The notes under the pieces: generated by a model
What the model was told of the DNA's origin: nothing
What the model saw: only the letters and a program-made list of their open reading frames with translations
Databases searched by the model: none
DNA from: Geodermatophilus marinus
Lineage (GTDB): Bacteria > Actinomycetota > Actinomycetes > Mycobacteriales > Geodermatophilaceae
DNA: 64,000 nucleotides
Direction: 5' to 3'
NCBI RefSeq assembly: GCF_003428645.1
Contig: NZ_QVQH01000016.1
Coordinates: 1-64,000, forward strand
Position numbers and translations under genes: made by a program
Part shown: piece after piece, positions 39,891-63,144 of the stretch
How positions within the stretch are numbered: position 1 is the stretch's first letter
Layout: every line of letters begins with the position of its first letter

Positions 39891-39895
39891 CTCCT

Positions 39896-39927
39896 CGTGG
39901 GGTGAGTGACGGGGCTCGAACCCGCGA
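39896..39927. repeat. attL-like 32-bp copy of the tRNA-His 3' end
   Basis: The 32 bases, beginning CGTGGGGTGAGTGACGGG and ending ACCCGCGA, are identical to 63113-63144. They contain the 3' acceptor strand and most of the T arm of tRNA-His but no anticodon. This is the expected scar of integration by a tyrosine recombinase at a tRNA 3' end. Confidence 0.85.
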
Positions 39928-39994
39928 GTGAGGCCGGTCCCGGGCCTGGTGGCCCGGCGAATCCGCAGGATAGCGGCCTTCTCGTACGTCCCGG

Positions 39995-40034
39995 AGCGGT
40001 TCTGAGCGGTCTACAGCGGTCCTGAGCGGTCAGT
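39995..40034. repeat. Four tandem 10-bp iterons, AGCGGT core
   Basis: AGCGGT occurs at 39996, 40006, 40016 and 40026, exactly 10 bp apart. The repeat units are close to GAGCGGTCCT. They lie just inside the left island end, where arm-type recombinase sites would be. The roughly 290 bases between the att copy and the first gene at 40222 hold no supported gene. Confidence 0.65.
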
Positions 40035-40106
40035 TGCCCCCGGATCTGCCCCCCCAGCTCGGCGTGGTGACCGAAGAGGTTCATCGCCACCGGGCCGGCA
40101 GTCGAT

Positions 40107-40126
40107 TGGGTGCCGCCACTGATGGT
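40107..40126 (+). promoter_or_regulatory. Shared 20-bp upstream element, site 1
   Basis: TGGGTGCCGCCACTGATGGT lies 95 bases before the DUF1772 gene. It matches the site at 42195 at 19 of 20 positions and contains the inverted core GTG-N4-CAC. Confidence 0.6.
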
Positions 40127-40221
40127 GGCGGTCGCCCTGGCACAGCAGCCTTGGGGGATGGCGCGGTGCAGACCGGGCTGCAGCCCGGCTGCCGGCCACG
40201 GAATCCGTCTGGAGGAGGCGC

Positions 40222-40722
40222 ATGGACCTCACGCTGCCGGTCGACTCGATCGCGATCGCGGCCGTTCTCTGCTGTGCTCTGGTGGCGGGCTTGCTGTTCT
40301 CCTTCGCCGTCGTGGTGATGCCGGGCTTCCGCGGGCTCGGGGACCATGAGTTCCTCAGCGCGTTCCGCGCCGTCGACGGCGTGATCCAGGCCGGGCAGCC
40401 TGTCTTCCTCGCTGTGTGGGCCGGGTCGGCTGTCCTGCCAGTGCTCGCGGTCGTGGTGCGCCTGCTGTCCGAGGGTGGCCCGGGTCCGGGGCTGCTCGTC
40501 GCTGCGGCCGCCGTTTCCGTGGTCGGCGTGCACCTTCCGACGGTGGCGGTGAACATCCCGCTCAACAACCGGCTGCAGGCGGTCGACGTGGGCGTTCTCG
40601 ACGGACCGGGGGCCGAGCGGGTCCGTGTCGGGTTCGAGTCGCGGTGGACGCGCTGGAACCTGGCGCGCACCGTCGCGTCCGTCGTGGCCGTGCTGCTGCT
40701 CGTCCTCGCACTGGCCGGATGA
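40222..40722 (+). CDS. DUF1772-family membrane protein
   Basis: The 166-residue protein has four hydrophobic helices and the DUF1772 pattern: AALVAGLLFSFAVVVMPGF, the Q-A-G-Q-P region, and VNIPLNNRLQAVD followed by FESRWTRWNLARTVAS. Function is unknown. ATG 40222 has GGAGGAGGCG upstream. The next gene starts five bases after its stop, so the serine hydrolase is in the same operon. A repeated 20-bp element lies about 95 bp upstream. Confidence 0.83.
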   Translation: MDLTLPVDSIAIAAVLCCALVAGLLFSFAVVVMPGFRGLGDHEFLSAFRAVDGVIQAGQPVFLAVWAGSAVLPVLAVVVRLLSEGGPGPGLLVAAAAVSVVGVHLPTVAVNIPLNNRLQAVDVGVLDGPGAERVRVGFESRWTRWNLARTVASVVAVLLLVLALAG

Positions 40723-40726
40723 TCCG

Positions 40727-42166
40727 TTGCGGCGACTCCTGAGCCTTCTCGCACTCGGCAGCGCAACCTTGCTCGTTCTCGGCGTCGGTGGTCCCGCGCA
40801 GGCACGGGTGCCCGTCGGGTCGATCGAGGATGTCGTCGACCGCGAGCTGGCCCCCTCGGGCGTCCCCGGCCTGGCCTACGCCGTGGTGGCCGACGGCCGG
40901 ATCACCTCGGTCGGCGGGCGCGGCGTGGTCAGGGGCGGAGGAGACGTGGAGGTCACGCCGGACACGGCCTTCGTGACCGGCTCGATCTCGAAGAGTTTCA
41001 CGGCACTGGCCGTGATGCAGCTGGTCGAGGCGGGCGAGGTCGACCCGGACGCCGAGGTCTCGCGCTACCTCGACACCTTCTCGGGCCGACCCGCCGGCGC
41101 GATCACGGTCCGGCAGCTGCTCAGCCACACGAGCGGCTTCTCGACGCTGCAGGGCAACGTCTCGCACACCGACACCACCGGCGGCGCGGACGAGCTCGCG
41201 CGCCGCGTGGACCGGCTCGCCGCGGCCACTCCGGCCTACGCACCCGGCGAGAAGTGGGAGTACTCCAACGCGAACTACGAGATCCTCGGGCGCCTGGTCG
41301 AGGTCGTGAGTGGACAGGAGTTCCAGGACTACGTCGCCACGAACGTCCTGGAACCGGTCGGCATGGAGCACAGCTTCGTCGCCGACGGCGAGGTCCATCC
41401 GGCGATGGCCACCGGGCACACCCCGTGGTTCGGTGCCAAGCGTCCGCTGCCCACGGGCGTGACCGAGCGCGGAACGGCTCCTCAGGGCGGGATCGTCGCG
41501 AGCGCCGGCGATCTGGCGCGCTACCTGCTGGTGATGATGAACGGCGAGGACGACGTGCTGAGCGCGGCGGGCAAGGCGTCGATGATGCGCCCGGCCGGCG
41601 GAGCATCCCCGTTCTACGGCTTCGGCTGGTTCGTGGATTCCGGCAACGGGCGCGTCTGGCACTCCGGCTCCACACCCGGTTTCGAATCGCTCGCCACGAT
41701 GGTCCCCGCCGAGGGGAAGGGGGTCGTGGTGCTGGTCAACGGAGGAAGCGGAGTGGGCTTCGGGGAGACGGCCCAGCTCCGCAACGGCATCACCGCCGCG
41801 GCGTTGGGCTTCGACTACGAGGGCGAGGGGTCCCGCATCTTCCAGAAGGCTCTGTTCGTCGCTCTGGTGCTCCTGCCGGTGATCTACCTGCTCAGCATGG
41901 TCTGGGCGTGGCGTCACCGCGGCGAGATCCGCGCCAAGTCGGGCGCCTTCGGGCTGTTCAGCCTGTGGTTCCCGCTGCTCACCACGGCCGGCGCGGCATG
42001 GGTCGTCCTCGACCTGGTGCCGAGGCTGCTCGGCTCACCGCTGCGCACGATCCGCCTGTTCCAGCCCGATCTCGGTCTGGCGATGACCGCCACCGCCGTG
42101 ACTGGCGTGCTGTGGGCTGTCTTCAGGCTGGCCGTCGCGTACACCGGACGGTCCGGCTCGTCCTGA
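40727..42166 (+). CDS. Membrane-anchored serine hydrolase (class C beta-lactamase fold)
   Basis: The 479-residue protein has an N-terminal signal (LLSLLALGSATLLVLGV). A beta-lactamase/D-alanyl-D-alanine-carboxypeptidase-like domain follows, with S-x-x-K in TGSISKSF near residue 86, Y-S-N in KWEYSNANYE near 180 and HSG in VWHSGSTPGF. Three or four transmembrane helices end the chain. Related proteins act as esterases, peptidases or penicillin-recognising enzymes; which applies is unknown. TTG 40727 is the only start close behind the DUF1772 stop. The membrane tail should hold the catalytic domain outside the cell. Confidence 0.85.
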   Translation: MRRLLSLLALGSATLLVLGVGGPAQARVPVGSIEDVVDRELAPSGVPGLAYAVVADGRITSVGGRGVVRGGGDVEVTPDTAFVTGSISKSFTALAVMQLVEAGEVDPDAEVSRYLDTFSGRPAGAITVRQLLSHTSGFSTLQGNVSHTDTTGGADELARRVDRLAAATPAYAPGEKWEYSNANYEILGRLVEVVSGQEFQDYVATNVLEPVGMEHSFVADGEVHPAMATGHTPWFGAKRPLPTGVTERGTAPQGGIVASAGDLARYLLVMMNGEDDVLSAAGKASMMRPAGGASPFYGFGWFVDSGNGRVWHSGSTPGFESLATMVPAEGKGVVVLVNGGSGVGFGETAQLRNGITAAALGFDYEGEGSRIFQKALFVALVLLPVIYLLSMVWAWRHRGEIRAKSGAFGLFSLWFPLLTTAGAAWVVLDLVPRLLGSPLRTIRLFQPDLGLAMTATAVTGVLWAVFRLAVAYTGRSGSS

Positions 42167-42194
42167 CCTGTCGCGCGGAAGTGATCGACGTAAA

Positions 42195-42214
42195 TGGGTG
42201 CCGCCACGGATGGT
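42195..42214 (+). promoter_or_regulatory. Shared 20-bp upstream element, site 2
   Basis: TGGGTGCCGCCACGGATGGT lies 99 bases before the quinone-oxidoreductase-like gene and just after the serine hydrolase stop. It is the best consensus copy of the three. Confidence 0.6.
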
Positions 42215-42313
42215 TCGCAGTGGGAGGGAGCGCGAGCGTGGGTTCACGACGCGGAGGCCCTGCGCGTCACCGGCGGCACCAGGCGCCGGTCTGCCGACCC
42301 TCGGGAGAGACCG

Positions 42314-43282
42314 ATGAAGGCGATCGTGCAACGCGGCTACGGCGGTGTGGACGTCCTCGAGTTCAGCGATGTCGAGCGGCCGCAGATCGGACCGGAGGAG
42401 GTTCTGGTCCGGGTGCAGGCCGCGGGCGTGGACCGGGGCACGTGGCACCTGATGGCCGGCCTGCCGTACCTGGTGCGGCTGATGTTCGGGCTGCGCGGCC
42501 CGAAGAACCCGGTGCCCGGCCTGGACGTCGCCGGCGTCGTGGAGGACGTCGGGGAGAGGGTGACCCGGTTCGCCCCCGGCGACGAGGTGTTCGGCATCGC
42601 CGCGGGTTCGTTCGCCGAGCACGCCCGTGCCCGGGAGGACAAGCTGGTCGCCAAGCCGGCCAAGGTCGGCTTCCCCGAGGCGGCCACGGTCGGGGTCTCC
42701 GGTCTGGCAGCGCTGCAGGCCGTCCGCGACCACGGGCAGGTCCGCCCGGGGCAGCGCGTGCTCGTCCTCGGCGCCTCCGGCGGCGTGGGCAGCTTCGCCG
42801 TCCAGCTCGCGAAGGCGCACGGCGCGCACGTCACCGGCGTGTGCAGCACGGCCAAGACCGACCTGGTCGCCGGGCTCGGCGCCGACGAGGTCATCGACTA
42901 CACCCGGGACGACGTCACCGACGGCCGGCGGCGCTGGGACGTCGTCCTCGACATCGGTGGCAACCGGCCGCTGCGAGCTCTGCGACGTGCTCTCATGCCC
43001 ACCGGGCGGCTGGTCATCGTCGGCGGCGAGGGCGGCGGGAAGGTGGTCGGCGGCGTGGACCGTCAGGTGCGCGCGATGCTGCTCTCGCCGTTCGTGCGCC
43101 AGGAGCTGGGCACGTTCATCTCCTCGGAGAACGCCCGGGACCTCGAGGTGCTCGCCGACCTGGTGCAGTCCGGCCGCCTGTCCCCGGCGGTGGACACCAC
43201 GTACGCGCTGGCCGATGCACGGGCCGCGGTCGACCACCTCAGCGCGGGACGCGCGCGGGGCAAGCTCGCTCTCACCGTCTGA
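42314..43282 (+). CDS. NAD(P)-dependent quinone oxidoreductase-like MDR enzyme
   Basis: The 322-residue protein belongs to the zinc-free medium-chain dehydrogenase group. It has the N-terminal VQRGYGGVDVLEFSDVERP, GLDVAGVVEDVG, PGDEVFGIA and the nucleotide site VLVLGASGGVGSFAVQLAKA; the zinc-ligand Cys residues are missing. It probably reduces quinones or reactive carbonyls with NADPH. ATG 42314 has GGGAGAGACC upstream. It lies 27 bases before the first DUF4386 gene, in the same unit. Confidence 0.86.
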   Translation: MKAIVQRGYGGVDVLEFSDVERPQIGPEEVLVRVQAAGVDRGTWHLMAGLPYLVRLMFGLRGPKNPVPGLDVAGVVEDVGERVTRFAPGDEVFGIAAGSFAEHARAREDKLVAKPAKVGFPEAATVGVSGLAALQAVRDHGQVRPGQRVLVLGASGGVGSFAVQLAKAHGAHVTGVCSTAKTDLVAGLGADEVIDYTRDDVTDGRRRWDVVLDIGGNRPLRALRRALMPTGRLVIVGGEGGGKVVGGVDRQVRAMLLSPFVRQELGTFISSENARDLEVLADLVQSGRLSPAVDTTYALADARAAVDHLSAGRARGKLALTV

Positions 43283-43309
43283 CCGGACCGGCCACCGCGG
43301 AGACCTGAC

Positions 43310-44107
43310 ATGGCAACTGAGACGGCAACCGAGACGACGGCCCGACCGGACGTCGCGAACCCGAACCGGCTGGCCCGGGTGATCGGCGCGCTGTTCGTCG
43401 TGCTGGCGGTGCTCGGGCCGTTCGCCCTGCTGTACGTGCCCGGGCAGATCGTGGTGGACGGCGACGCCGCCGCGACCGCGGCCAACCTGCGCGACTCGGG
43501 TGGCCTGTTCCGCGCCGGCATCGCCGTCGAGGTCGTGATCGTGCTCGTCGAGATCGCGATGCCGGTGCTGCTGTACCTGCTGTTCCGGCCGGTGAACCGC
43601 GCGGTGGCGCTGACCGCGGCGTTCGCCCGGTTCGGCGAGGCCGTCGTGATCGGGGTGGGCCTGCTCGCGTCGATCCTCGCGCTGCGACTGGTCGGCGACG
43701 CCGGGTACCTCGACGCGGTCGACACCGGGCAGCGCGACGCGCTCGCGCTGCTGGCGCTGGACAGCCACGGGGACGGCGTGTTCGTCTCGCAGATCTTCTT
43801 CGGCTTCTCGCTGCTGCTGCTGGGCTGGCTGGTCTTCCGGGCCGGGTTCGTGCCCCGGCTCCTCGGCGTCCTGCTGGCCGTCGCCGCGGCCGGCTACCTG
43901 GCCGACAGCCTCGGCCACCTGCTGTGGAGCGGCTACGACGACGCCTTCGGGTGGTTGGTCGGTGTCACCGCCGTCGTCGGCGAGGTGCCCTTCTTCCTCT
44001 GGCTGCTGATCAAGGGCGTCGACGCGCGGACCTGGCACGCCCGCGACGCGGCCACCCCGACGGGCCGGATGCCTCCACCGGCTGCGCGGGAGGCGACCGT
44101 CCGGTGA
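43310..44107 (+). CDS. DUF4386-family membrane protein, copy 1
   Basis: The 265-residue protein has about seven helices and the DUF4386 pattern: RLARVIGALFVVLAVLGPF, the DAAATAANLRDSGGLFRAGI segment, LYLLFRPVNRAVALTAA and a late LGVLLAVAAAGYLADS. The function of the family is unknown. It follows the oxidoreductase gene and precedes the sensor kinase gene. A paralog lies at 46102 on the other side of the two-component pair, which suggests a functional link. Confidence 0.83.
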   Translation: MATETATETTARPDVANPNRLARVIGALFVVLAVLGPFALLYVPGQIVVDGDAAATAANLRDSGGLFRAGIAVEVVIVLVEIAMPVLLYLLFRPVNRAVALTAAFARFGEAVVIGVGLLASILALRLVGDAGYLDAVDTGQRDALALLALDSHGDGVFVSQIFFGFSLLLLGWLVFRAGFVPRLLGVLLAVAAAGYLADSLGHLLWSGYDDAFGWLVGVTAVVGEVPFFLWLLIKGVDARTWHARDAATPTGRMPPPAAREATVR

Positions 44108-44190
44108 CCGTGCCCGTGCGGGCCCGGCCGACGGCGGGTGGGGGCGAAAGGGCTTACCTCCCGCCCCGGCTGCCCGTCAGGGTGGAGGTC

Positions 44191-45237
44191 ATGACGACGC
44201 CCCCGCCGGCGCCCCTGGTCTCGCTGCCTGCCGCGCGGGCGCGCAGGCCGGGGCAGAAACGGCCCGTCGCGGCCCGGCGGCGCGCCTCGCTGTACGCGCG
44301 GGTCGTCGCCGTGAACGCCACCATCCTGCTCGCCGCGGTGTTGGCGCTGACCTTCACCCCCGCGACGGTGTCCTTCCCGGTGACCGGGGACGAATGGACG
44401 ATCCTCGGCGTCGGGCTGGCGCTGCTGGTGGTTGCCAACGCGGTGCTGCTGCGGATCAGCTTCCGGGGACTGACCGCGCTCGTCCGGCAGATGGAGACCC
44501 TCGACCTGCTGCAGCCGCGCGAGCGGCTGCCGGAGATGGGCGGCCCCGAGACCCGGACGCTGATCGCCGGCTTCAACACCATGCTCGATCGGCTGGAGGC
44601 CGAGCGGCGCGCCAGCGTGCGCCGGACGATCACGGGCATGGAGGCCGAGCGCCGGCGCATCGGCCAGGAACTGCACGACGAGATCGGGCAGCGGCTCACC
44701 GGCATCCTCCTGCAGTTGGGCCGCATCCACGACGATGTTCCCGCGTCCCTGCGTGCGCGCGTGGAGGGGGTGCAGGAGGAGGCACGGGCGACGATCGACG
44801 AGGTGGGCGCGCTGGCCCACCAGGTGCGCCCCGGCGTGCTCACCGACCTCGGGCTGCGCAGCGGGCTGGACGCCCTGGTCGCCTCCTTCCGCCAGCACGC
44901 GCAGGCACGGGTCGACGCGACGTTCCCGGAGCGCCTGCCGCCGATGACCGGCGAGGCGGAGCTGGCCGTCTACCGCATCACGCAGGAGGCGCTGACCAAC
45001 GCCGCCCGCCACGCCGAGGCCACCCGGATCGCGGTCGCGGTCGCGGTCACCGCGGACGAGCTGGTGCTGCAGGTCAGCGACGACGGCCGCGGGCTGGGGG
45101 AAGCCGGCGAGGACCAGGGGATGCGCGGCATGCGGGAGCGCGCCCTGCTGATCGGCGGCCGGCTGCGCATCGACAGCCCCCCCTCCCGCGGCGTGCGGGT
45201 CCGCCTGGCGGTACCCGCGGCCAACCTCACCGGCTGA
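44191..45237 (+). CDS. Sensor histidine kinase, NarL/LiaS (HPK7) type
   Basis: The 348-residue protein has two transmembrane helices with a very short extracytoplasmic loop and a HAMP-like linker. The HisKA_3 dimerisation domain contains RRRIGQELHDEIGQRLTG with the phospho-His, and the ATPase domain contains ITQEALTNAARHAEA and VSDDGRGLGEA. A short periplasmic loop recalls membrane-stress kinases such as LiaS. ATG 44191 is chosen because GGAGG lies just upstream; GTG 44104 is open. The response regulator gene follows after 12 bases. Confidence 0.87.
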   Translation: MTTPPPAPLVSLPAARARRPGQKRPVAARRRASLYARVVAVNATILLAAVLALTFTPATVSFPVTGDEWTILGVGLALLVVANAVLLRISFRGLTALVRQMETLDLLQPRERLPEMGGPETRTLIAGFNTMLDRLEAERRASVRRTITGMEAERRRIGQELHDEIGQRLTGILLQLGRIHDDVPASLRARVEGVQEEARATIDEVGALAHQVRPGVLTDLGLRSGLDALVASFRQHAQARVDATFPERLPPMTGEAELAVYRITQEALTNAARHAEATRIAVAVAVTADELVLQVSDDGRGLGEAGEDQGMRGMRERALLIGGRLRIDSPPSRGVRVRLAVPAANLTG

Positions 45238-45249
45238 CCCCGTCCGACC

Positions 45250-45909
45250 ATGCCGATCCCCTTCCCCGCCCGCGTGCTGATCGCCGACGACCACGCCGTC
45301 GTCCGCGAGGGCCTGAAGGCCGTCCTCGAGCGGCAGGCCGACCTGCAGGTGGTCGCCGAGGCCGTCGACGGTCTCGACGCGGTGCAGCAGATCGCCGCCA
45401 CCGACATCGACCTGGCCATCCTCGACGTCGCCATGCCCCGGATGACCGGCCTGCAGGCGACGCGGGAGCTCACCCGCCGCCGCCCGGCCCTGCCGGTGCT
45501 GCTGCTGTCGATGTACGACCGGGAGCAGTACTTCTTCGAGGCGGTCGCCGCCGGCGCGGCCGGCTACGTGCTCAAGCGGCAGGCCGACCGTGACATCGTC
45601 GACGCCTGCCGGGCCGCGCTGCGCGGCGAGCCGTTCATCTACCCCGCCGCACTGTCCGCGCTCATGCGCGACTACGTGGACCGGGCCGCCCGCGGGGAGC
45701 GACCCGGTCGCGGGCCGCTGACCCCGCGGGAGAGCGAGGTCTCCAAGCTGATCGCCGAGGGGCACAGCTCCGGTGAGATCGCCGAGCTGCTCGCCATCAG
45801 CCCGAAGACCGTCGAGCGGCACCGGGCGAACATCCTGGACAAGCTCGGCCTGCGCGACCGGGTCGAGGTCACCCGCTACGCCATCCGCAACGGCCTCGTC
45901 GAGCCCTGA
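45250..45909 (+). CDS. NarL/LuxR-type response regulator
   Basis: The 219-residue protein has a receiver domain (VLIADDHAVVREGL, phospho-Asp in LAILDVAMPRM, Lys in YVLKRQ). A C-terminal LuxR helix-turn-helix follows (LTPRESEVSKLIAEGHSSGEI, then SPKTVERHRANILDKL). It pairs with the kinase gene 12 bases upstream. The 20-bp element found before three local units is a reasonable candidate for its binding site, but that link is inferred. Confidence 0.92.
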   Translation: MPIPFPARVLIADDHAVVREGLKAVLERQADLQVVAEAVDGLDAVQQIAATDIDLAILDVAMPRMTGLQATRELTRRRPALPVLLLSMYDREQYFFEAVAAGAAGYVLKRQADRDIVDACRAALRGEPFIYPAALSALMRDYVDRAARGERPGRGPLTPRESEVSKLIAEGHSSGEIAELLAISPKTVERHRANILDKLGLRDRVEVTRYAIRNGLVEP

Positions 45910-45958
45910 TCGGCCCCGGCAGCCGCCCCCGGCTGTGCACGGCAGGACCGGCCGGAGA

Positions 45959-45978
45959 TGGGTGTCAGCACGGATGGT
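45959..45978 (+). promoter_or_regulatory. Shared 20-bp upstream element, site 3
   Basis: TGGGTGTCAGCACGGATGGT lies 123 bases before the second DUF4386 gene. It matches site 2 at 17 of 20 positions and keeps the GTG-N4-CAC core although the spacer changed. Confidence 0.55.
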
Positions 45979-46101
45979 CGCCGGCCGGACCGACGCGAAG
46001 GGTGAGGGGCAGGCGGTGACGGCGGCATCGCCGCCATCCTCCGGTCCCCGTCCCCGACCTCTCGCTCCCCGGCGAGCCGACCTGACCTCCGGTGGTGCAG
46101 T

Positions 46102-46908
46102 GTGACGAAGACGCCGACGACTCCTCCGACGCCGACACCGACCACCCCGGCGGCCGCGGGCATCGGCCCGGCCCCGGCCTCACCCCGCCGGCTGGCGCGG
46201 ATCGCGGGCCTGTTCTACCTGCTCGTGCTGGTGTTCGGTGTCTTCGCGCACCTCGTCGTCCGGGGTGAGCTGTACGTGCCCGGTGACGCCGCGGCGACCG
46301 CGGCCAACCTGGCCGAGCAGCCCACGCTGTTCCGCCTCGGCTACGTCGCCGACCTGCTCATGGCCACGTTCCTGCTGCTCACCGCGATGGCGCTGTACCG
46401 GCTGCTGCGGCACGTGCACGCCGACGCCGCCCGGGCGATGGTGGTCTTCACCGCCGTCGGCACCGCCATCACCTTCGCCGTGCTCAGCTCGTCCTTCGCC
46501 GCCCTGCTGGCCGCCACCGAGGAGCCCTACCCGGCCGCGCTCGGCGACAGCGGGTCCGCGGCGACCGCGCTGCTGCTGCTCGACACCCACCACTACGGCT
46601 ACCTCAGCGCCCAGGTGTTCTTCGGGCTGTGGCTGCTGCCGCTGGGCTACCTGGTCTACCGCTCGGGCATGTTCCCGCGCTGGCTCGGCGTGCTGCTGAT
46701 CGCCGGTGGCGTCGGCTTCCTCGTCGACACGGTCCTGCTGTTCCTGGTCCCCGGCGTCCGCGACACCCTCGACCCGGTGGTCGGCACGCTCACCTCGGTC
46801 GCCGAGCTGGTCATGATCGCGTGGTTGCTGATCCGCGGCGCCCGACCCGCCCGGCTCAGCGCGCCGGCGGGGTCCCCGTCCGCCCCGGCGCCGACCGCCG
46901 CCACATGA
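46102..46908 (+). CDS. DUF4386-family membrane protein, copy 2
   Basis: The 268-residue protein is a paralog of the DUF4386 protein at 43310. RIAGLFYLLVLVFGVFAHL, VPGDAAATAANLAEQPTLFRLG and LYRLLRHVHADAARAM match the family, with about seven helices and a Thr/Pro-rich N-terminus. GTG 46102 overlaps the end of a short spurious frame. It has its own upstream 20-bp element. The two paralogs flank the kinase and regulator genes. Confidence 0.83.
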   Translation: MTKTPTTPPTPTPTTPAAAGIGPAPASPRRLARIAGLFYLLVLVFGVFAHLVVRGELYVPGDAAATAANLAEQPTLFRLGYVADLLMATFLLLTAMALYRLLRHVHADAARAMVVFTAVGTAITFAVLSSSFAALLAATEEPYPAALGDSGSAATALLLLDTHHYGYLSAQVFFGLWLLPLGYLVYRSGMFPRWLGVLLIAGGVGFLVDTVLLFLVPGVRDTLDPVVGTLTSVAELVMIAWLLIRGARPARLSAPAGSPSAPAPTAAT

Positions 46909-47004
46909 CCTGCGCTCGGCCACGGTGCACCCGACGCGGCCCGGCTCGGCCATGACCCCGCCGACCGGGCCCGGCCGGTGGGCTGCCCCGCGATCGGGCC
47001 GGCG

Positions 47005-47523
47005 ATGAGCTTCCGCGAGTACCTGCGCTGGGAGGGCGGCCTCGCGGTGGTCATCGGGGTGACCCTGTGCGCCTACGGCTGGCACGCCAGGCACCAGGGC
47101 GCCGCCGACGCGGCGATCAGCGGCGCCATCATGCTCACCGGCACCGGGGTGTTCCTGGCCCTCCGCCACAAGGTGCCCTTCCGCGCACCGGGCGGCTGGT
47201 TCACCGCCACGCCGCTCGCCGCCGCGGGCGAGGCGCATGCCACGGCCAGCACCCGTCGCCACCTGATGGCGGCACTTGTCGCTGAGATCGCCGTCATCAC
47301 CGCGGTGACCGTCGCCCTGAGCGTCCTGACCCGGTTCTGGCTCACCTACGTCGACTTCGGCGTCTGGCTCGTCGCCGTCGGCGTGCTCAAGGCCGGGCCC
47401 GCAGTCGCTCGCGTCGCGCGGGACGAGGCGAGATCCGGGGCGACCTACTGCGTGGCCCGGCGGCCGATCCGCGGCCTGGTCGAGCTGGGCCGGTGCAGTG
47501 ACGCCGAGATCGTGGCGCGCTGA
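47005..47523 (+). CDS. Hypothetical membrane protein
   Basis: The 172-residue protein has two N-terminal helices (LAVVIGVTLCAYGWH and AAISGAIMLTGTGVFLAL) and two further helices (LVAEIAVITAVTVALSVL, DFGVWLVAVGVLKA). A basic cytosolic tail follows. I do not recognise the family. ATG 47005 (MSFREYL) is chosen over ATG 46978. The following membrane ORF is in the same frame after a single TGA. Confidence 0.55.
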   Translation: MSFREYLRWEGGLAVVIGVTLCAYGWHARHQGAADAAISGAIMLTGTGVFLALRHKVPFRAPGGWFTATPLAAAGEAHATASTRRHLMAALVAEIAVITAVTVALSVLTRFWLTYVDFGVWLVAVGVLKAGPAVARVARDEARSGATYCVARRPIRGLVELGRCSDAEIVAR

Positions 47524-47580
47524 TGGCGGCGGGAGAGGTCCCCGCTGCTCGCGGTCGTCGCGGCCTGCCTGATCGGCCTG

Positions 47581-47934
47581 GTGGTGGCATTCCAGATCAC
47601 CCTGGCCGCCGGAGCGCCGTGGGGCGCCGTCGCCTACGGCGGCCGGGTGGTGCAGGACGACGGCAGGTTGCCGATCCGCTACCGGTGGGGCAGCGCCGCC
47701 GCGGCCGTCCTCCTCGCCGGCGCAGCCTGGCTGGTCCTGGCGACCGGCGGGGTCGTGGATCGAGGGCCGGTGCCAGCATCGGCCCTCGAGGGCGGCGCGT
47801 GGGTGCTGGCCGGCTTCTTCGCCCTCAACACCGTGGGCAACCTCGCGGGCAGGCACCCGGTCGAGCGGTTCGGTGCCGCTGCGCTAGCCGCAGTCCTGGC
47901 CGTGCTCTGCGGCGTCGTCGCGATGATGCGCTGA
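47581..47934 (+). CDS. Hypothetical membrane protein, N-terminus uncertain
   Basis: The 117-residue product resembles a common actinobacterial four-helix membrane family with an LAAGAPWGAVAYGG motif after helix 1 and FFALNTVGNLAGRHPVER near the end. The first helix really begins around 47545 (LLAVVAACLIGLVV), but no ATG, GTG or TTG is available there in frame. GTG 47581 cuts into that helix. The frame is continuous with the previous gene except for one TGA at 47521. A mutation at the start is possible. Confidence 0.55.
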   Translation: MVAFQITLAAGAPWGAVAYGGRVVQDDGRLPIRYRWGSAAAAVLLAGAAWLVLATGGVVDRGPVPASALEGGAWVLAGFFALNTVGNLAGRHPVERFGAAALAAVLAVLCGVVAMMR

Positions 47935-48381
47935 AGCCTGCCGTGCCGGGGGACGGTCAGGTGATCACCGTGGAGCGACGGTTCACGTCGGTAGCACCGG
48001 ACTCGGTAGTCCACGTTCCCGAGACCTGGCGCCGCCGGGCTCAAGAGGTATGCGGCGTCGGGCTCGTCGGCCAGCTCGGCTCGGAGAATGGCCGTGATGT
48101 GGTGCGCCACCACGCCGTGGGCCTCGTTGCGGTGGCAGGCCGGGTCCGAGCAGAGGTCCATCGGGATCAGGCGCAGGACGGTGCGGGCGAGTCGCAGCCG
48201 CCGGTGAAGATCATGTGCTCGGCGCCGACCAGCGCGAACTGGACCTTGCGCGGGCTTGATGTGCTCCTGGGTGCCTGCAGCGACCGGCTGTGGACCCGGA
48301 GCTGGCCCGTCCCGACGCCGACAGGGCAGGAGAACCCGGCGGGGATTGCCCCCGGGGGCCGGCCGCCGGACGGGTCGGAGG
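47935..48381. other. Gap with a possible degraded gene
   Basis: No intact gene is supported in these 447 bases. On the minus strand, about 48030-48170, the frame reads MDLCSDPACHRNEAHGVVAH and then a segment ending AELADEPDAAYLL, which looks protein-like rather than random. It has no proper start, and the flanks dissolve into Arg/Pro-rich sequence. I would treat it as a remnant of unknown origin. Confidence 0.35.
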
Positions 48382-53456: not shown

Positions 53457-53492
53457 GGGCAGCCGGCCCTCGACGTCCGGTCCGGGGCGATC

Positions 53493-56036: not shown

Positions 56037-56707
56037 GCCGGGTGCTCGCGGTCGACGACGACCGACAACTGCTCCGGGCGCTGCGGATCACCCTGCGGGC
56101 CGCCGGGCACGACGTCGTCACCGCGGAGGACGGCCGCTCCGCCCTGCGCGCCGCCGCCGAGAACCACCCGGACGTCGTCGTCCTCGACCTGGGGCTCCCC
56201 GACCTGGACGGCACCGAGGTGCTCGCCGGCCTGCGCCCGTGGTTCCCCGGTCCGGTCCTCGTCCTGTCCGCGCGCAGCGACAGCCGCGACAAGGTCGACG
56301 CGCTCGACGCCGGCGCCGACGACTACGTGACCAAGCCGTTCGACATGGGCGAGCTGCTCGCCCGGCTGCGGGCGCTGCAGCGCCGCGGGACGCCGGAACC
56401 GGAGGAGCCGGTCGTGCGCACCGAGCACTTCACCGTCGACCTGGCCGCCCAGCAGGTCAGGGTCGACGGCGGGGTGGTGCGGCTGACCCCCACCGAGTGG
56501 GGGCTGTTCTCGGAGCTGGTGCGCGCCCCCGGCCGGTTGGTCGGCCAGCGGCACCTGCTCCAGGCGGTCTGGGGGCCGGCGTACGAGAAGGAGACCAACT
56601 ACCTGCGGGTCTACATGGCGCAGCTGCGCCGCAAGCTGGAGCCCGACCCGGCCAACCCCCGGTACCTGCGGACCGAGCCCGGCATGGGCTACCGGTTCAC
56701 GCCATGA
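56033..56707 (+). CDS. kdpE: Response regulator for kdp transcription
   Basis: The 224-residue OmpR-type regulator has the acidic pocket VLAVDDDRQLL, phospho-Asp in VVLDLGLPDLDG, VTKPF with the conserved Lys, and a winged-helix output domain (LTPTEWGLFSELVRAPGRLV, NYLRVYMAQLRRKLE, GMGYRF). It should activate kdpFABC when phosphorylated by KdpD. The start and stop both overlap neighbouring genes by four bases. Confidence 0.96.
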   Translation: MSRVLAVDDDRQLLRALRITLRAAGHDVVTAEDGRSALRAAAENHPDVVVLDLGLPDLDGTEVLAGLRPWFPGPVLVLSARSDSRDKVDALDAGADDYVTKPFDMGELLARLRALQRRGTPEPEEPVVRTEHFTVDLAAQQVRVDGGVVRLTPTEWGLFSELVRAPGRLVGQRHLLQAVWGPAYEKETNYLRVYMAQLRRKLEPDPANPRYLRTEPGMGYRFTP

Positions 56708-56895: not shown

Positions 56896-56965
56896 GCGGG
56901 TACGACCGCCCTGACCGCGGACCGGCAGCGCGCCCCGGCCCGCGTCCCGGTCAGGAGGGGTTCGG

Positions 56966-58336
56966 GTGACCGAGGCCCTCCGTCGCGGTGCCGGCCGCTC
57001 AGCGCCGTCCGGCGGCTTCCGCCACCCCGGCCGGATCATCGCCGGCGCCTTCGCGGGGGCGATCGCGGTCGGCACCGCCCTGCTGTCGCTGCCCGTCGCC
57101 ACCGCTGGTCCCGGCCGCGCCGATGTCCTCACCGCGCTGTTCCACGCGACCTCGGCCGTCTGCGTCACCGGGCTCGTCACCGTGGACACGGGCACCTACT
57201 GGTCCGGCTTCGGGCAGGCCGTGATCCTGCTGTGCATCCAGGCCGGCGGGCTGGGGATCATGACGCTGGCGACCCTGGTCGCGCTCGTGCTGTCCCGTCG
57301 CCTGGGGCTGCGGGCCCGGCTGATCGCGCAGGCGGAGACCAAGGCGCTGTCCGCGGCCGACGTCCGCCGGGTCGTCCGCCGGGTCGTGGTCTTCAGCCTC
57401 GCGACCGAGGCCGTGGTCGCCGTCGTGCTCGGGGTGCGGTTCGCCACCGGCTACGAGCACTCGCTGCCGTCGGCGGCCTACTTCGGGGTGTTCCACGCCA
57501 TCTCGTCGTTCAACAACGCAGGATTCGGGCTCGACGCCGACAACCTCATGGGCTACGTCGCCGATCCGTGGATCAGCCTGACCATCTGCGCCGCCGTCAT
57601 CGTCGGGGGGCTGGGGTTCCCGGTGGTGTTCGAGCTGGCCCGCGAGTGGCGGACGCCGAAGGCCTGGTCGGTGCTGACCCGGATCACCGTCATCGTCACC
57701 GTGGCGTTGCTCGTCGTCGGCACGGTGGTGTTCCTGATCGCGGAGAGCCGCAACCCCGGCACCCTCGGTCCGCTCAGCGCCGGCACCAAGGTGCTGGCCG
57801 CGTTCACCGCCGCGGTGATGCCCCGCACCGCCGGGTTCAACAACCTCGACATCGCCGCCTACCAGCCCGAGACGCTGCTGCTCACCGACGCCCTCATGTT
57901 CATCGGCGGCGGCAGCGCCGGCACCGCCGGTGGCATCAAGGTCACCACCTTCGGCCTGCTGGCCTACGTGCTGTGGGCAGAGATGCGCGGCGACCCCGAC
58001 GTCGAGGTCGGCCGCCGCCGCGTGCCGGCCACCAACCAGCGCCAGGCGCTGGCCGTCGCCCTGCTCGGCATCGGCGTGGTCGCCGTCGCCACCTTCCTGA
58101 TGGCAGCGCTGAGCGACTTCACCTTCGACCAGGTGCTGTTCGAGGTCGTCTCCGCGTTCGCCACCGTCGGCCTGTCCACCGGCATCACCGCCGACGTCCC
58201 GGCAGCCGGGCAGGTGCTGCTCGTGCTGCTCATGTACAGCGGCCGCATCGGTCCGCTGACCCTGGCGTCCGGACTGGCACTGCGCGAGCGCGCCCGCCGC
58301 CACCAGCTCCCCGAGGAGAGGACGATCGTTGGCTAG
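56966..58336 (+). CDS. ktrB: TrkH/KtrB-type potassium channel subunit
   Basis: The 456-residue protein has eight or more helices and four half-membrane filter repeats: ATSAVCVTGLV, ISSFNNAGFGLD, PRTAGFNNLD and FATVGLSTGIT. A gating-loop-like GGGSAGTAGGIKVTTFG segment is present. It transports K+ with the membrane potential and possibly Na+. GTG 56966 has AGGAGGGG upstream. The TrkA/KtrA gene overlaps its end by eight bases, so both make one transporter. Confidence 0.92.
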   Translation: MTEALRRGAGRSAPSGGFRHPGRIIAGAFAGAIAVGTALLSLPVATAGPGRADVLTALFHATSAVCVTGLVTVDTGTYWSGFGQAVILLCIQAGGLGIMTLATLVALVLSRRLGLRARLIAQAETKALSAADVRRVVRRVVVFSLATEAVVAVVLGVRFATGYEHSLPSAAYFGVFHAISSFNNAGFGLDADNLMGYVADPWISLTICAAVIVGGLGFPVVFELAREWRTPKAWSVLTRITVIVTVALLVVGTVVFLIAESRNPGTLGPLSAGTKVLAAFTAAVMPRTAGFNNLDIAAYQPETLLLTDALMFIGGGSAGTAGGIKVTTFGLLAYVLWAEMRGDPDVEVGRRRVPATNQRQALAVALLGIGVVAVATFLMAALSDFTFDQVLFEVVSAFATVGLSTGITADVPAAGQVLLVLLMYSGRIGPLTLASGLALRERARRHQLPEERTIVG

Positions 58337-58988
58337 TAAGGAACCCGTCGCCGTCATCGGCCTCGGCCGGTTCGGCACCGCGTTGGCGCTCGAGCTCACG
58401 CGCGGCGGCACCGAGGTGCTCGCCGTCGATGCCCGGCCCGACATCGTCCAGCGCCTGTCCGGGCAGCTCGGCCACGTCGTCATCGCGGACTCCACCGATC
58501 CGGAGGCGCTCACCGAGATCGGCATCGCCGACTTCAGCCGCGTCGTCGTCGCGATCGGCAACGACCTGGAGGCCAGCATCCTCACCACCGCGCTGCTGGC
58601 CGAGCTGGGCATCCGCGACATCTGGGCGAAGGCGATCAGCCGGCAGCAGGCGACCATCCTCGAGCGGATCGGAGCCCACCACGTCGTCTTCCCCGAGCAG
58701 GACATGGGCGAGCGGATCGCCCACCTCGTCGCCGGCCGGCTGCTGGACTGGGTGGAGCTGGACCCGCAGTGGGTGCTCGCCAAGACCAAACCGCCGCGGG
58801 AGATCGTCGGCGTGCCGCTCGGCGAGACCGGGCTGCGCACGAAGCACCGCATCACCGTCGTCTCGGTCAAGGCGGAGAACCAGGCGACCTACACGCACGC
58901 CGACTACGACACCGTGCTCACGTACGGCAGCGTGATCCTGATCGCCGGCCGCCCCCACGATGTGGAGAGGTTCGTCGAGCTGCAGTGA
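58329..58988 (+). CDS. ktrA: TrkA/KtrA-type K+ channel gating subunit
   Basis: The 219-residue protein has an RCK_N Rossmann domain (VAVIGLGRFGTALALEL, then DSTDPEALTEIGIADF and AIGNDLEASIL). A C-terminal RCK_C domain ends in SVILIAGRPHDVERF. It forms a cytosolic nucleotide-sensing ring on KtrB. Start is TTG 58329, overlapping the ktrB stop, with GAGGAGAGG upstream. Length is typical for single RCK proteins. Confidence 0.93.
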   Translation: MASKEPVAVIGLGRFGTALALELTRGGTEVLAVDARPDIVQRLSGQLGHVVIADSTDPEALTEIGIADFSRVVVAIGNDLEASILTTALLAELGIRDIWAKAISRQQATILERIGAHHVVFPEQDMGERIAHLVAGRLLDWVELDPQWVLAKTKPPREIVGVPLGETGLRTKHRITVVSVKAENQATYTHADYDTVLTYGSVILIAGRPHDVERFVELQ

Positions 58989-59012
58989 CTTCTCTCCCGA
59001 TGACCGGTGATC

Positions 59013-59217
59013 GCGCAGCTGCGGTGGGTCACCGAGCACCGGGGTTCCGCACCAGCGCAGCGGGATGGTGCGCGGCGTGTGGTTCACCTGGGACGACGTC
59101 CTGGCCATCGGGGCGATGCTCCCCGACCTCATGACCACCCGGCAGTCCGCCGGTCTCGCGGCGGCCGGGATCCTCTCCGACGAGCAGCTCGACCGGTGGG
59201 TCCACCTCGGCATCTGA
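59013..59217 (+). pseudogene. Broken copy of the helix-turn-helix gene at 48382
   Basis: The sequence aligns with the 48382 gene: RWVTEH, then after a frame change VPHQRSGMVRGVWFTWDDVL, AIGAMLPDLMTTRQSAGLAA and SDEQLDRWVHLGI. The N-terminal helix-turn-helix is gone and one frameshift lies near 59035. A short open frame from ATG 59065 still encodes the last 50 residues. It stands 25 bases after ktrA, at the far end of the potassium module. Confidence 0.75.
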
Positions 59218-59422: not shown

Positions 59423-59803
59423 GTGCGTCCGATGGCCTGCCGCTCCGTGGCGGGTGACCGTTCCCCGTTCGCCGTGCGGATCGATCTCGTCGGCGGGCGT
59501 GTCGAGGTGATCGGCCAACTCGGCCGTCGCACCGCTCACCTGGTGCAGGACGCCGTCTCCGCGCTGCTGCAGACCGATGGCGCTGCGTGGGTGCTCGACG
59601 TGGCCGGGCTCACCGGCTGCGACCGGGCCGGTGTGCGCGTGATCGGAGGTGCCTACCGGTGGGCGCTGCGGCACGGTCGCCGGCTCGCGCTGGTCGGCGC
59701 GCGCCCGTCGCTGCAGGCCGAGCTGGCTCGCCTGCGCCTGGACGGACACCTGCTGGCGGCCGGCGACGGCGCGCCGTCCACCGCCGACCGGCGCTCGGCC
59801 TAG
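59423..59803 (+). CDS. STAS-domain protein (anti-sigma antagonist-like)
   Basis: The 126-residue protein has a STAS-type pattern: VRIDLVGGRVEVIGQLGRRTA, WVLDVAGLTGCDRAGVRVI and LALVGARPSLQAEL. The usual D-S-[ST]-G phosphorylation site is replaced by GCDRAG, so partner-switching by phosphorylation is doubtful. GTG 59423 or ATG 59432 may start it. No kinase partner is in the same unit. It may bind a ligand or a sensor protein. Confidence 0.65.
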   Translation: MRPMACRSVAGDRSPFAVRIDLVGGRVEVIGQLGRRTAHLVQDAVSALLQTDGAAWVLDVAGLTGCDRAGVRVIGGAYRWALRHGRRLALVGARPSLQAELARLRLDGHLLAAGDGAPSTADRRSA

Positions 59804-60047: not shown

Positions 60048-60752
60048 TCACTTTCGCCCGTCGGGGATCTCGCCGGTCTCCACCAGCCGCCGCGCCACCT
60101 CCCGCAGCTTGACGTTGGTGTGCTGCGACAGCCGGCTGAGCACCGCGAAGGCTTGATCGGGGGTGATCTTCAGCCGCTCCATCAGGATGCCCTGCGCTTG
60201 GCCGATCAGCGTGCGAGTGGCCATCGCCGTGCGCAGGTGCTGCTCGCTCTGCGCGCTGCGCAGCGCCACGGCGGCCTGCGCGGCGAAGGCCAGCCCCTCT
60301 CCTCGGGTCTCCGCATCGAAGGCCCCGGGGACCGGCGAGTACAGGTTCAGCGCGCCGAGGCTGTTGTGCTCCTCGTCGGTGTACAGCTGCAGCGACAGGC
60401 TGCTGCGGATGCCGGTCCGCTCGGCCACCGCACGCGCCCACCGCGGGTAGCGCTCCTCGGTGGTCATGTCCTCGATCTGGAAGGTCTCCTGTTCCCAGAT
60501 CGAGTCCAGGCACGGCCCCTCCGCCAGCTCGTACTGCAACCGGTCGGCGTGGCCGGCCCGGTCGTCGGTGACGACCGGGGTCTCGATCTCGCGGCGCTGC
60601 GTGACCAGCGACACGCTGGCCCACACGGTGCCGTCCAGGTTCTCGGCGGCCGCATCTACGACGCGCTGCAGGGTGTGCTGGGTGTCCGGCTCGTTGAGCA
60701 GATCCCGCGCGATGGATGCCAGCCGCTCGTCGAAGGTGCGGTCCTCGGCCAC
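60048..60752 (-). CDS. GAF-ANTAR regulator inside the island
   Basis: The 234-residue protein has a GAF domain (EGPCLDSIWEQETFQIEDM, SLGALNLYSPVPGAFD) and an ANTAR domain (TRTLIGQAQGILMERLKIT, then DQAFAVLSRLSQHTNVKL). It is a paralog of the 38982 protein. GTG 60752 is chosen for its GAGGAGG ribosome binding site; the longer frame upstream lacks a recognisable start. It should act on RNA hairpins in leader transcripts; the signal is unknown. Confidence 0.87.
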   Translation of the reverse strand: MAEDRTFDERLASIARDLLNEPDTQHTLQRVVDAAAENLDGTVWASVSLVTQRREIETPVVTDDRAGHADRLQYELAEGPCLDSIWEQETFQIEDMTTEERYPRWARAVAERTGIRSSLSLQLYTDEEHNSLGALNLYSPVPGAFDAETRGEGLAFAAQAAVALRSAQSEQHLRTAMATRTLIGQAQGILMERLKITPDQAFAVLSRLSQHTNVKLREVARRLVETGEIPDGRK

Positions 60753-61198
60753 GAGATCCTCCTCGGGTCGGTCCCCACTTCGAAGGCGTGGAAACGGGGA
60801 TCGGTCGATCGGCCCACTACCCCCCCGTGCCCGACGGAAGCACCGTCGGTCTGCCGCCGCCGCTGACGGTGCGGCCCGGGCTCGGTACCCGCGACGTGCC
60901 CGGGCGAACGCGGACGGCGAGAACTGCCGTCGCCCCCCCGGGGGCTGGGGCATCGGGGTCCGATCCCGGTCGAGCAGGCGACGAATCCTGGTCCGTGCAG
61001 GCGCTCACCACGTGGGACGGGGCGCTCAGCCCGATGTCGAGGTGGCAGTCGCAGCAGAGCACCAGGCAGCGGCCGGCTGCGGCGTCGCACCGCAGGCGCG
61101 GTGACCCGGTGCCCCCGCAGGCCGGCTGCTGTCACACGCCCTCAACCGATCGGGAGTAGGAGCGCTCGCCGTGGGTACCGGCGCGGCGTCGGCGCCCG
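60753..61198. other. Gap between divergent genes, no supported gene
   Basis: The 446 bases lie between the GAF-ANTAR start and the kinase gene. They should carry both promoters. Open frames here are GC artefacts. I see no strong hairpin pair that could be an ANTAR target, though short inverted repeats are common at this base composition. Confidence 0.5.
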
Positions 61199-62170
61199 AT
61201 GTCGCGGCCACGACACACCGGCTCCAACAGCGGGCCGACCTCCGACACCACGGAGTGCGCGATGGTCGCCCCTGCCTCCTCCCAGCACGCCTGCTCGTCG
61301 ATGCCTCCGCCCGGCGCGGCCCTCGACCCCGACGACATCGCCGGCCAGGCATCGCTGCTCGGCGAGGTCAGCCACGAGCTGCGGAACCGCCTGACCCCGA
61401 CGCTCGCCGCCGTGCACGTGCTGGTCACCTACCGCGCGCACCTCCCGCCCACCGGCCAGCAGGCGCTGGACCTGCTCGCCGAGGAAACCGCCTCCTTCGC
61501 GCAACTGCTCACCGAGCTGCTCGACCTGGCCCGCGAGGAGGCCGACGGCCGCGACCCGGTCGTGGAGACGCTGCCAGTGCAGGCCGTCGTCCGCGCTGCG
61601 CTGGACCGGCAGGTCGGCGAGCAGCGCGCCACCGAGCTGCTCCGCACCGCGCCCGGTGCGCATGCGCTGCTCGTCCGCGCCGACCGGCGCCGCCTCGCGC
61701 GCGTGCTGGGCAACCTGCTGACCAACGCCGACACCCACGGCGGCGGCTGCGTGGCCGTCCACGTCCGACCCGGTGAGGCGGCCGTCCTCATCCAGGTCGA
61801 CGACGCCGGACCGGGGGTGCCCCACGCCGACCGCGACCGCGTCCTCGAATGCTTCGCGCGCGGCCCGCACTCGGCCGGCGCGGGCCTCGGCCTGGCGCTG
61901 GCCTCCCGCTGGGTCCACCGGCTGGGCGGCACCCTCTCCGTGGACGATAGCCCGGCCGGAGGCGCACGCTTCACCCTCCACCTGCCGGCGGTGCACCGCA
62001 TCACCGCCGTCCCGATGGGAGGGCACCGGCCGATCGGGCAGGAAGTCGACCGACTCCCGCCCGCCGCCGCACTGCCCGGCCGGCACAGCGCTCCCGGCGT
62101 CAGCAGCACCAGCGTCCCGCGCGTCCCCCCGACCAGCGAGGACATGCGGGTGCGCTCGACCACGTCCTGA
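61199..62170 (+). CDS. Orphan histidine kinase without a visible sensor domain
   Basis: The 323-residue protein has a HisKA domain with GEVSHELRNRLTP (His 59), the N box LLTNADTHGGG, the D box DDAGPGVP and GAGLGLALASRW. Before the His only about 55 residues exist, with no transmembrane helix or PAS domain. The tail after residue 270 is Pro/Ser-rich. Start may be ATG 61199 or ATG 61262. There is no adjacent response regulator. It may be the remaining half of a larger membrane kinase. Confidence 0.65.
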   Translation: MSRPRHTGSNSGPTSDTTECAMVAPASSQHACSSMPPPGAALDPDDIAGQASLLGEVSHELRNRLTPTLAAVHVLVTYRAHLPPTGQQALDLLAEETASFAQLLTELLDLAREEADGRDPVVETLPVQAVVRAALDRQVGEQRATELLRTAPGAHALLVRADRRRLARVLGNLLTNADTHGGGCVAVHVRPGEAAVLIQVDDAGPGVPHADRDRVLECFARGPHSAGAGLGLALASRWVHRLGGTLSVDDSPAGGARFTLHLPAVHRITAVPMGGHRPIGQEVDRLPPAAALPGRHSAPGVSSTSVPRVPPTSEDMRVRSTTS

Positions 62171-62254
62171 CCGACTCGGCAACGGAGCTGACCGCGGAAC
62201 CGGCCATCGTCGTCGGCGACTGCGCGGGTGAGGAACCTGCGCACCGTCCTCGGC

Positions 62255-62810
62255 ATGACGACGCACCGCACGTCGGAGGACGACACGGTCGGGATCGACG
62301 AGCTCGACCTGGGGCCCGGCTCCCGGCCGGCCGATCCCGCTCATCTCGCGGCCCTCGCCGAGGTCCTCGACGACACCCCGCCGGTGCTCGTCCTCGTCCA
62401 CGGCGGCCGGCTCCGTCTGCTCGACGGCTTCATGCGCGTGGACGCCGCCCGCGCGCTGGGCCGGGCCACGGTGCGGGTCAGCGGGTGCGCTGCGACGATG
62501 CGTCCGCGGTGGAGCGGGCGGTCCGCACGAACGCCAACCACGGCCTGCCGATGTCCGGGCGCAGCGCCGGACGGCGGGGCTGCGGTTGCTCGCCCCCGCC
62601 CCGGACTGGTCGGACCGGAGGATCGCGTCGACCTGCGGAGTGGACCCGCGGACGGCCGGCGGTACCTGTCGGCGGAGCAACCCGAGTCTCGGCGTGGCAC
62701 CGCGCGGCAACTGCTGCCGGACGCCCGGCGGCTGTCGGACCGGAGGTCGGTCGCCGTGCCGGGCTGTCGGGGGGCGCGGTCCGCCGGATCCGGGCCGGCA
62801 CCGCGGCGGG
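62255..62810 (+). pseudogene. ParB-like (StrR-type) regulator, frameshifted several times
   Basis: From ATG 62255 the frame gives a ParB/sulfiredoxin-like start (VGIDELDLGPGSRPADPAHL, LRLLDGFMRVDAARALG) until about 62480. The family then expects an acidic segment and NHGLP: DDASAVERAVRTNANHGLPM is present, but in a second frame. A third frame holds LLAPAPDWSDRRIAST with the helix-turn-helix region near 62590. At least two frameshifts break the gene. Related proteins regulate antibiotic and sporulation genes. Confidence 0.7.
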
Positions 62811-63073
62811 GACGGCGGCGGGCGTGGCAGGGCCTGTGTCGACGCCGCCTGAACCGACCTCCTGGCAACGGTGCTGGCGGCCCCGCTTCTCGATCCACGT
62901 GCTGGGCGGCTTGAGGGACGTGGTGGGTGGGCTCCGTGCGGCCGTCGGTCGGTTGACCGGCCGCACGGTGCGCAGCGCGAGCCGCTGCGCGGTCGTCCCG
63001 CCACCGCCCCCGAAGTGCCCCCCAACGAGGGGGCAGCGGGCGTGATCGTGCCCCTCAGCGCGGGCCGGGGAAC

Positions 63074-63113
63074 GGGAGAGGCCCTGGTCGGCGAACCGGC
63101 CAGGGCCTCTCCC
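63074..63113. terminator. Terminator of tRNA-His
   Basis: GGGAGAGGCCCTGG (63074-63087) pairs perfectly with 63100-63113, and four further pairs include one G-T. It lies right behind the tRNA 3' end on the minus strand. A similar hairpin sits beside the left att copy. Confidence 0.7.
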
Positions 63114-63144
63114 GTGGGGTGAGTGACGGGGCTCGAACCCGCGA
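63113..63144. repeat. attR-like 32-bp copy including the tRNA-His 3' end
   Basis: This 32-bp stretch is identical to 39896-39927. It covers the tRNA-His 3' half of the T arm and the acceptor strand, plus a few bases beyond the gene. The crossover should have taken place inside it. Confidence 0.85.

Follow-up and report, generated by a model that had tools for sequence, protein, structure and literature searches.

How a complete set of potassium uptake genes came to lie beside a tRNA-His gene in Geodermatophilus marinus is the question raised by the DNA analysed here, a window of 64,000 nucleotides that forms part of contig 8 of a 5.2-Mb genome (labelled G000 in our comparisons). The genes lie within positions 39896-63144, a 23-kb region that an earlier note had described as a mobile island between repeats of the tRNA-His end. 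Judging from its ends, its genes and its relatives, we consider it quite likely that the region is a decayed composite genomic island at tRNA-His, made of at least two tandem elements. The potassium cassette is most likely the cargo of the second, tandem element, and the island appears to be mobile in origin and is now probably immobile.

Both ends of the region have the anatomy of a tRNA-integrated island, with an intact tRNA at one end, a 3′ fragment at the other and a direct repeat. The repeat of 32 bp, identical at 32/32 positions, lies at 39896-39927 and 63113-63144; these are exactly the two copies found in the window at ≤3 mismatches, and 100 dinucleotide shuffles gave 0. ARAGORN places the one tRNA-His(GTG) of the window, the target gene whose 3′ end is the attachment site, at 63115-63190 on the minus strand, adjoining an orn-type exonuclease gene (63240-63995). 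The right copy is the 3′ end of this tRNA plus two bases and the left copy is the displaced 3′ fragment alone, and we denote them the cores of the left and right attachment sites, attL and attR (both minus strand). A strong hairpin follows each copy, reading out of the tRNA, at 63073-63114 on the island side of tRNA-His (−40.1 kcal/mol, z −5.7) and at 39856-39894 beyond attR (−39.0 kcal/mol, z −4.7), again on the minus strand. Hence the perfect repeat, its origin in the tRNA and the terminator beside each copy, all claimed in the earlier note, were confirmed.

Judged from conserved sequence, a family of elements with conserved att arms integrates at the 3′ end of tRNA-His. The window carries both arms on the minus strand, attL at 62866-63113 (nhmmer 178.8 bits; 84.6% identity to genome G041 over 259 bp, blastn) and attR at 39928-40060 (189.7 bits over 39897-40123; 89.5% to G041, blastn), with the window's own sequences included in both profiles. 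The attR arm consists of short direct repeats (ACCGCTCAG...) and a G-rich motif, which as a typed pattern occurs in the attR copy only, and we make no claim for attL. The attR profile comprised 12 sequences and the attL profile 15, and both were searched against 971,072 bases (45 sequences, 44 genomes); members of the attR, attL and xis profiles match their own profile by construction, and the same number of bases reversed gave ≤6.0 bits for attR and ≤6.7 bits for attL. Nine attR matches came from outside the profile, in G003, G013, G029, G034, G053, G057, G058 (two) and G041 (a second one). Traces of att arms follow tRNA-His in 13 of the 26 genomes of the genus, and in 7 of the 26 a second tRNA-His 3′ fragment lies downstream, with about 130 bp on its island side conserved. 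The tRNA-His surroundings were also retrieved for 18 of the 86 Geodermatophilaceae genomes of other genera. The blast listings were filtered by length, identity or E-value.

In these elements the integrase gene adjoins the attL arm. An uninterrupted integrase of this type was found in 1 of the 112 Geodermatophilaceae genomes searched, that of Blastococcus sp. TF02A-30 (G039), whose genus belongs to the same family; there a protein of 481 aa with a Phage_integrase domain (9e-19) is encoded at +194 to +1636 beside tRNA-His, and attR lies at +7659. At E ≤1e-40, matches among the 112 genomes were confined to G039, G015 (two pieces) and G097 (residues 1-312), and shorter pieces occur in G000, G001, G005, G009, G011, G021, G033 and G041. 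The piece in the window is a stub of about 20 codons with its start codon lost (62862-62921, minus strand), 75% identical over residues 1-20 of the G039 integrase (E 4e-4), and probably the int remnant of the first element, E1. No Pfam integrase domain was found among the island open reading frames (ORFs) scanned; with no integrase beyond the stub, we therefore file the island as a remnant of a tRNA-integrated genomic island. When contigs were scanned with the G039 integrase, the Blastococcus record came back together with a single weak match from a genome unrelated to it, and none of the 633 phages and 65 plasmids with a match to this integrase covered ≥80% of it. An order-level search at E 1e-60 gave 0 of 397 genomes but missed G039 itself, with 4 candidates scored per genome, and is not interpretable. 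G006, G007, G009 and G020 also show integrase-like matches, 14-18 kb downstream of tRNA-His, which were set aside at only about 30-38% identity to the G039 integrase.

Another recurrent gene of these elements is excisionase-like (xis) and encodes a helix-turn-helix protein of about 109 aa. It adjoins attR in G008, G021, both G041 elements and G058, and its nucleotide profile gives fainter matches next to attR in two more genomes, G033 (E 0.0013) and G029 (E 0.05, 11.2 bits versus 9.7 for the reversed control). The window holds two copies on the plus strand, which differ from each other (50% identity over 72 aa) and between which lies the potassium cassette. A full copy at 48382-48711, 118 bp from the kdpC end, lies in a region 84.6% identical to that of the G041 xis beside attR and may represent the right end of the second element, E2. 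A remnant at 59011-59217, 22 bp from the trkA end (83.9 bits with the nucleotide profile), may mark the lost right end of E1. The full copy does not stand beside attR as in the relatives named above; the alignments of xis and attR, 8 bp apart in G041, are 8.2 kb apart in the window, a gap that would be explained by an inserted segment (40061-48273).

The same cassette, in the same order and at the same tRNA, is present in G001 with 78-88% DNA identity. There it starts about 400 bp past the attR of the first element, i.e. outside the first attL-attR pair, and an xis remnant in the same orientation lies about 100-380 bp beyond kdpC (protein E 0.007; 31.2 bits and E 4e-8 with a nucleotide profile made without G001, the reversed control giving 9.7 bits). 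Moreover, in G021 and G041 the first attR is followed immediately by the ends of a second element. No inner att site survives in the window genome, and the case for stacking there comes from its two xis copies and from G001.

The site itself occurs in relatives in different states. tRNA-His follows orn in 26 of 26 genus genomes, and a conserved block ending at tRNA-Lys starts 1.9 to 29.8 kb past it in 24 genomes, the window genome having the largest gap; the contigs of G005 and G021 stop short of this block. A stretch resembling a prfC-like gene (assigned by eye) starts 47-94 bp past tRNA-His in G002, G004 and G022, whereas in G003 and G013 about 2.5 and 7.2 kb are inserted and an attR remnant, weak in G013 (20.4 bits), lies just before the same gene. 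We take these to be the same site, apparently empty in the first three genomes and filled in the other two. Candidates for the empty site that the earlier note proposed to look for were thus seen in three congeners, none of them with the left flank of the window, whose genome has a different left neighbour. The possibility raised there that all relatives have the same genes at this place does not apply, with kdpA in 3 of the 25 other genus genomes and at this place in G001 only. An apparent duplication of orn and tRNA-His in G008, with copies at both contig ends, looks like the untrimmed overlap of a circular contig and was discarded.

Genes for KdpA are present in 4 of 26 genus genomes and in 35 of the 112 family genomes. 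In G007, kdpA is on a contig other than that of tRNA-His; in the draft genome G021 (about 610 contigs) it is on a separate contig that is not placed relative to tRNA-His, and the kdp contig of G041 is likewise not placed. Seven g9 genomes have both on one contig, with kdpA about 138-161 kb from tRNA-His. Among 12 further kdp stretches, only that of G041 has trkH-trkA beside kdp, in inverted order, and 5 of the 26 genus genomes carry TrkH-like genes (E 1e-40). A second TrkH-like protein of G000, 78% identical, is encoded outside the island at C12:253998-255356. KdpA-like genes were found in 392 of 72,556 plasmid records, many of them megaplasmids and 179 predicted to be conjugative or mobilizable, and no KdpA relative was found in viral contigs.

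Different histories could leave such a region. Rearrangement can also yield tRNA fragments, as is generally known, and the left repeat might be a chance or rearranged fragment without any integration; this is scarcely credible, however, when the island-side arm of about 130 bp next to the fragment is kept in seven genus genomes and in other genera; the integrase in its neighbourhood likewise argues against this view. A single element could have brought all 23 kb; the second, incomplete xis and the segment of 8.2 kb would then be internal duplications or later gains. The single attL arm and single attR arm that are left, with cores identical at 32/32 bp, agree with such an event, and G057 likewise has 25 kb from a short attL match to attR. 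Nevertheless, among the ten other genomes with attL and attR matches the remaining nine span only 1.5-11 kb to the first attR, the two xis copies around the cassette differ from each other, and the G001 cassette lies outside the first attL-attR pair, which together make one element for the whole region improbable. Thus, of the mobile island in the earlier note, site-specific insertion at tRNA-His is retained, on the grounds of arms, int and xis traces, composition and empty sites in congeners, and one element with a 23-kb cargo is not supported.

It might also be argued that the cassette is old chromosomal DNA of the locus, around which elements inserted and which most species lost. G000 and G001 do share the cassette order at the same tRNA, and sisterhood of their Kdp proteins was not rejected (approximately unbiased (AU) test, p 0.08). 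However, 22 of the 26 genus genomes yielded no kdpA, and in trees of the potassium genes, made from 14 of the 35 kdpA genomes (12 fetched plus G000 and G001), monophyly of Kdp from G000, G001 and G007 was rejected (AU p 0.0005). Within these 14 genomes the nearest relatives of the G000 Kdp proteins are those of G041, which belongs to another genus (85.6%, versus 83.2% for G001), whereas two host proteins show the opposite for G041 and G001 (orn 78 versus 85%; a 360-aa protein 82 versus 88%). In a tree of orn and the linked block, G000 lies outside a supported clade to which G001 belongs, and the placement of G000 has weak support. For the arms and xis of the window, too, G041 is the nearest relative, with G008, a congener of the window genome, close behind. 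We therefore regard an ancestral cassette as very unlikely and keep to a composite island with the cassette as cargo of its second element.

Several observations weigh against a composite mobile island. The xis assignment is weak by family profile (HTH_17 below its cut-off; phrog_1840 excisionase E 0.0015), and its predicted structure is poor, with a predicted local distance difference test score (pLDDT) of 59. Moreover, a distance of 4.5 kb separates xis from attR in G015, and protein and nucleotide profile searches found no xis in G039, the genome with the intact integrase. The integrase stub of the window is short (E 4e-4). An arm profile search found no inner att site in the window genome, and the genus genomes compared gave no empty site with its own left flank. 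In G001, an attL-like match between attR and the cassette scores 46.1 bits against ≤43.6 bits for terminator-only matches, so that its length alone (it covers profile positions 5-112) favours an arm. Long or second tRNA fragment matches were part of the reason for choosing the 18 loci of other genera. Tetranucleotide composition does speak for the island, the distance to the left core being 0.18-0.21 in its three segments compared with 0.11 at 33.3-39.9 kb outside it and 0.08-0.12 in ten 10-kb core windows, but these values were obtained on segments of differing length.

According to the scheme that we favour, a family integrase would recombine attP of the element with the tRNA-His 3′ end and so restore the tRNA, and xis probably steers excision. 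E1 (about 59.0-63.1 kb) would have left the attL arm, the dead integrase stub, regulators and the xis remnant, and E2 (about 48.3-59.0 kb) would have brought the potassium cassette with its own xis; the segment at 40.06-48.27 kb between xis and attR may be a later insertion or a third, more decayed element. Repeated docking may stack elements in this way, and loss of inner att sites and int would freeze their cargo. Because inner att sites and integrases are gone, the island would now be unable to move, except with the help in trans of some related integrase, and transfer from cell to cell would need a helper or natural uptake. We infer the order of events, the stacking mechanism and the work of xis. 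For its host, the cassette would help K+ uptake when K+ is scarce or cells dry.

The E2 cargo begins, next to xis, with kdpC (48830-49441), kdpB (49441-51489) and kdpA (51486-53144) on the minus strand; KdpC and KdpA were assigned by Pfam and KdpB as the E1-E2 ATPase between them, 89.7% identical to its G001 counterpart. Just upstream of kdpA, a hydrophobic peptide of 29 aa (53147-53233, minus strand) was assigned by eye as a KdpF-like small subunit. On the plus strand follow the KdpD sensor kinase (53493-56036) and an adjoining KdpE-type response regulator (56033-56707), both by Pfam, a TrkH/KtrB-like K+ channel subunit (56966-58336; TrkH, with TIGR00933 at 320 bits, below the 331 cut-off) and a TrkA/KtrA-like RCK protein of 219 aa (58329-58988; TrkA_N, TrkA_C). 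The Kdp system is hence complete, A to E by Pfam and order and F by eye. The high- and low-affinity uptake set of the earlier note is thus present as Kdp and TrkH/TrkA genes, with a KdpF-like subunit added, but TrkH and TrkA are better called KtrAB-like; the domain layout, with a single-domain TrkA of 219 aa beside TrkH, is one that we take to resemble KtrAB rather than E. coli Trk.

The E1 cargo comprises a STAS-domain protein found by domain search (59423-59803, plus strand), a GAF-ANTAR protein with a 65% relative in the E1 of G021 (60048-60953, minus strand) and a histidine-kinase-type protein with HisKA and HATPase_c (61199-62170, plus strand). A second GAF-ANTAR protein is encoded just outside the island (38982-39791), and relatives of both recur downstream of tRNA-His in several congeners. 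The 8.2-kb segment encodes anthrone-oxygenase-like, beta-lactamase-fold hydrolase and zinc-type dehydrogenase proteins, two DUF4386 proteins and a HisKA_3 kinase with a LuxR-type regulator. A two-component pair is thus present as the earlier note had stated, and nothing found marks it as a stress module. The product of 40625-42166 was rejected as a resistance beta-lactamase (90 bits versus the 415-bit cut-off for class C beta-lactamase), and 37720-39459 was rejected as a gene, since it overlaps the ORF of a low-molecular-weight phosphatase on the opposite strand. No FtsK-type transfer protein or replication initiator was found in the ORFs scanned in the island and in parts of G001, G015, G018, G021, G039, G041 and G097, ORF sets that are not exhaustive.

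Potassium cargo had been called unusual for a mobile element; kdpA is indeed rare in the genus (4/26), but kdp on mobile DNA is already known from plasmids and from the arginine catabolic mobile element (ACME). The kdp genes are also carried by SCCmec II, and ACME islands use Ccr recombinases. The kdp operon lies on the staphylococcal composite islands ACME IV/V (PMC7029136), which, like the island here, are chromosomal and carry high-affinity potassium uptake genes. Unlike the present island in tRNA-His, ACME sits in orfX, and the mobility genes are unrelated. In E. coli, trkG in the cryptic Rac prophage is likewise a Trk-type potassium gene on a defective integrated element, but Rac is a prophage with one transporter gene, whereas a full Kdp and Ktr set is present here (PMC9898762).

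With respect to architecture, Islander maps tRNA-integrated genomic islands in which a regenerated tRNA and a displaced fragment mark the ends and tyrosine integrases perform the integration (PMC4383910). The ends in the window have this anatomy; however, Islander requires an integrase within the island, and ours has only a stub and is composite (PMC4383910). CGI48 at tRNA-Trp of Shewanella putrefaciens is also a composite tRNA island containing another island, a likeness of architecture alone (PMC8978831). Actinomycete integrative and conjugative elements (AICEs) share with the present elements a tyrosine integrase, an excisionase-type recombination directionality factor, tRNA 3′ ends as targets, tandem integration and remnants lacking tra or rep; unlike AICEs, no transfer or replication gene was found in the ORFs scanned here, in a scan that was not exhaustive (PMC3218068). 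Tycheposons of Prochlorococcus and Methylophilaceae are tRNA-targeted, use a tyrosine recombinase and bring cargo including nutrient uptake to one locus, as here, although they belong to other phyla and use other target tRNAs (PMC10872708). A literature search below full-text depth found no published description of this tRNA-His element family.

The cargo of sibling elements, as far as their ORFs were scanned, is varied. It includes ClpB-like and Hsp20 proteins in G039, a copper-type ATPase and DUF326 in G041, a universal stress protein, cation ATPase, acetate kinase and phosphoketolase in G097, FecCD with a binding protein and a major facilitator superfamily transporter in G018, a response regulator, LuxR-type regulator and CHAD protein in G015, a dehydrogenase and MalT-like regulator in the E1 of G001, and GAF-ANTAR and SpoIIE proteins in G021. 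The G097 element has an integrase of two-thirds length and no attR within the 18.7 kb fetched. A stress theme across this cargo is suggestive. We would give about equal weight to belief and disbelief in a wider reading, in which small non-conjugative elements, with hardly any mobility genes beyond an integrase and an excisionase-like one, use tRNA-His across Geodermatophilaceae as a dock for exchangeable abiotic-stress and ion-transport cassettes (potassium here, Clp/Hsp20 in TF02A-30, a copper ATPase in G041, siderophore-type uptake in G018, a cation ATPase and phosphoketolase in G097), and tandem docking and decay produce composite islands. Actinobacteria of drylands would then possess a system resembling tycheposons.

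The island itself is of a known kind, and the interest lies in this family-wide view. Our results offer an evidenced case of a complete potassium-uptake set that would have reached a soil actinobacterium via a tRNA docking site. A concrete, testable family integrase (Blastococcus TF02A-30) and xis (G041) are now named. If the cargo pattern holds, tRNA-His may serve as a marker for exchangeable stress cassettes in these actinobacteria.

Elsewhere in the window, positions 1-5141 have lower GC (about 65% at 1-4 kb) and adjoin tRNA-Leu (5060-5141). They hold N6-methylase-like ORFs and a broken Mutator-family transposase, and are possibly another insertion at a tRNA. Within the transposase remnant, 139 bp (3663-3801) are 85% identical to the end of the G041 kdp-trk stretch.

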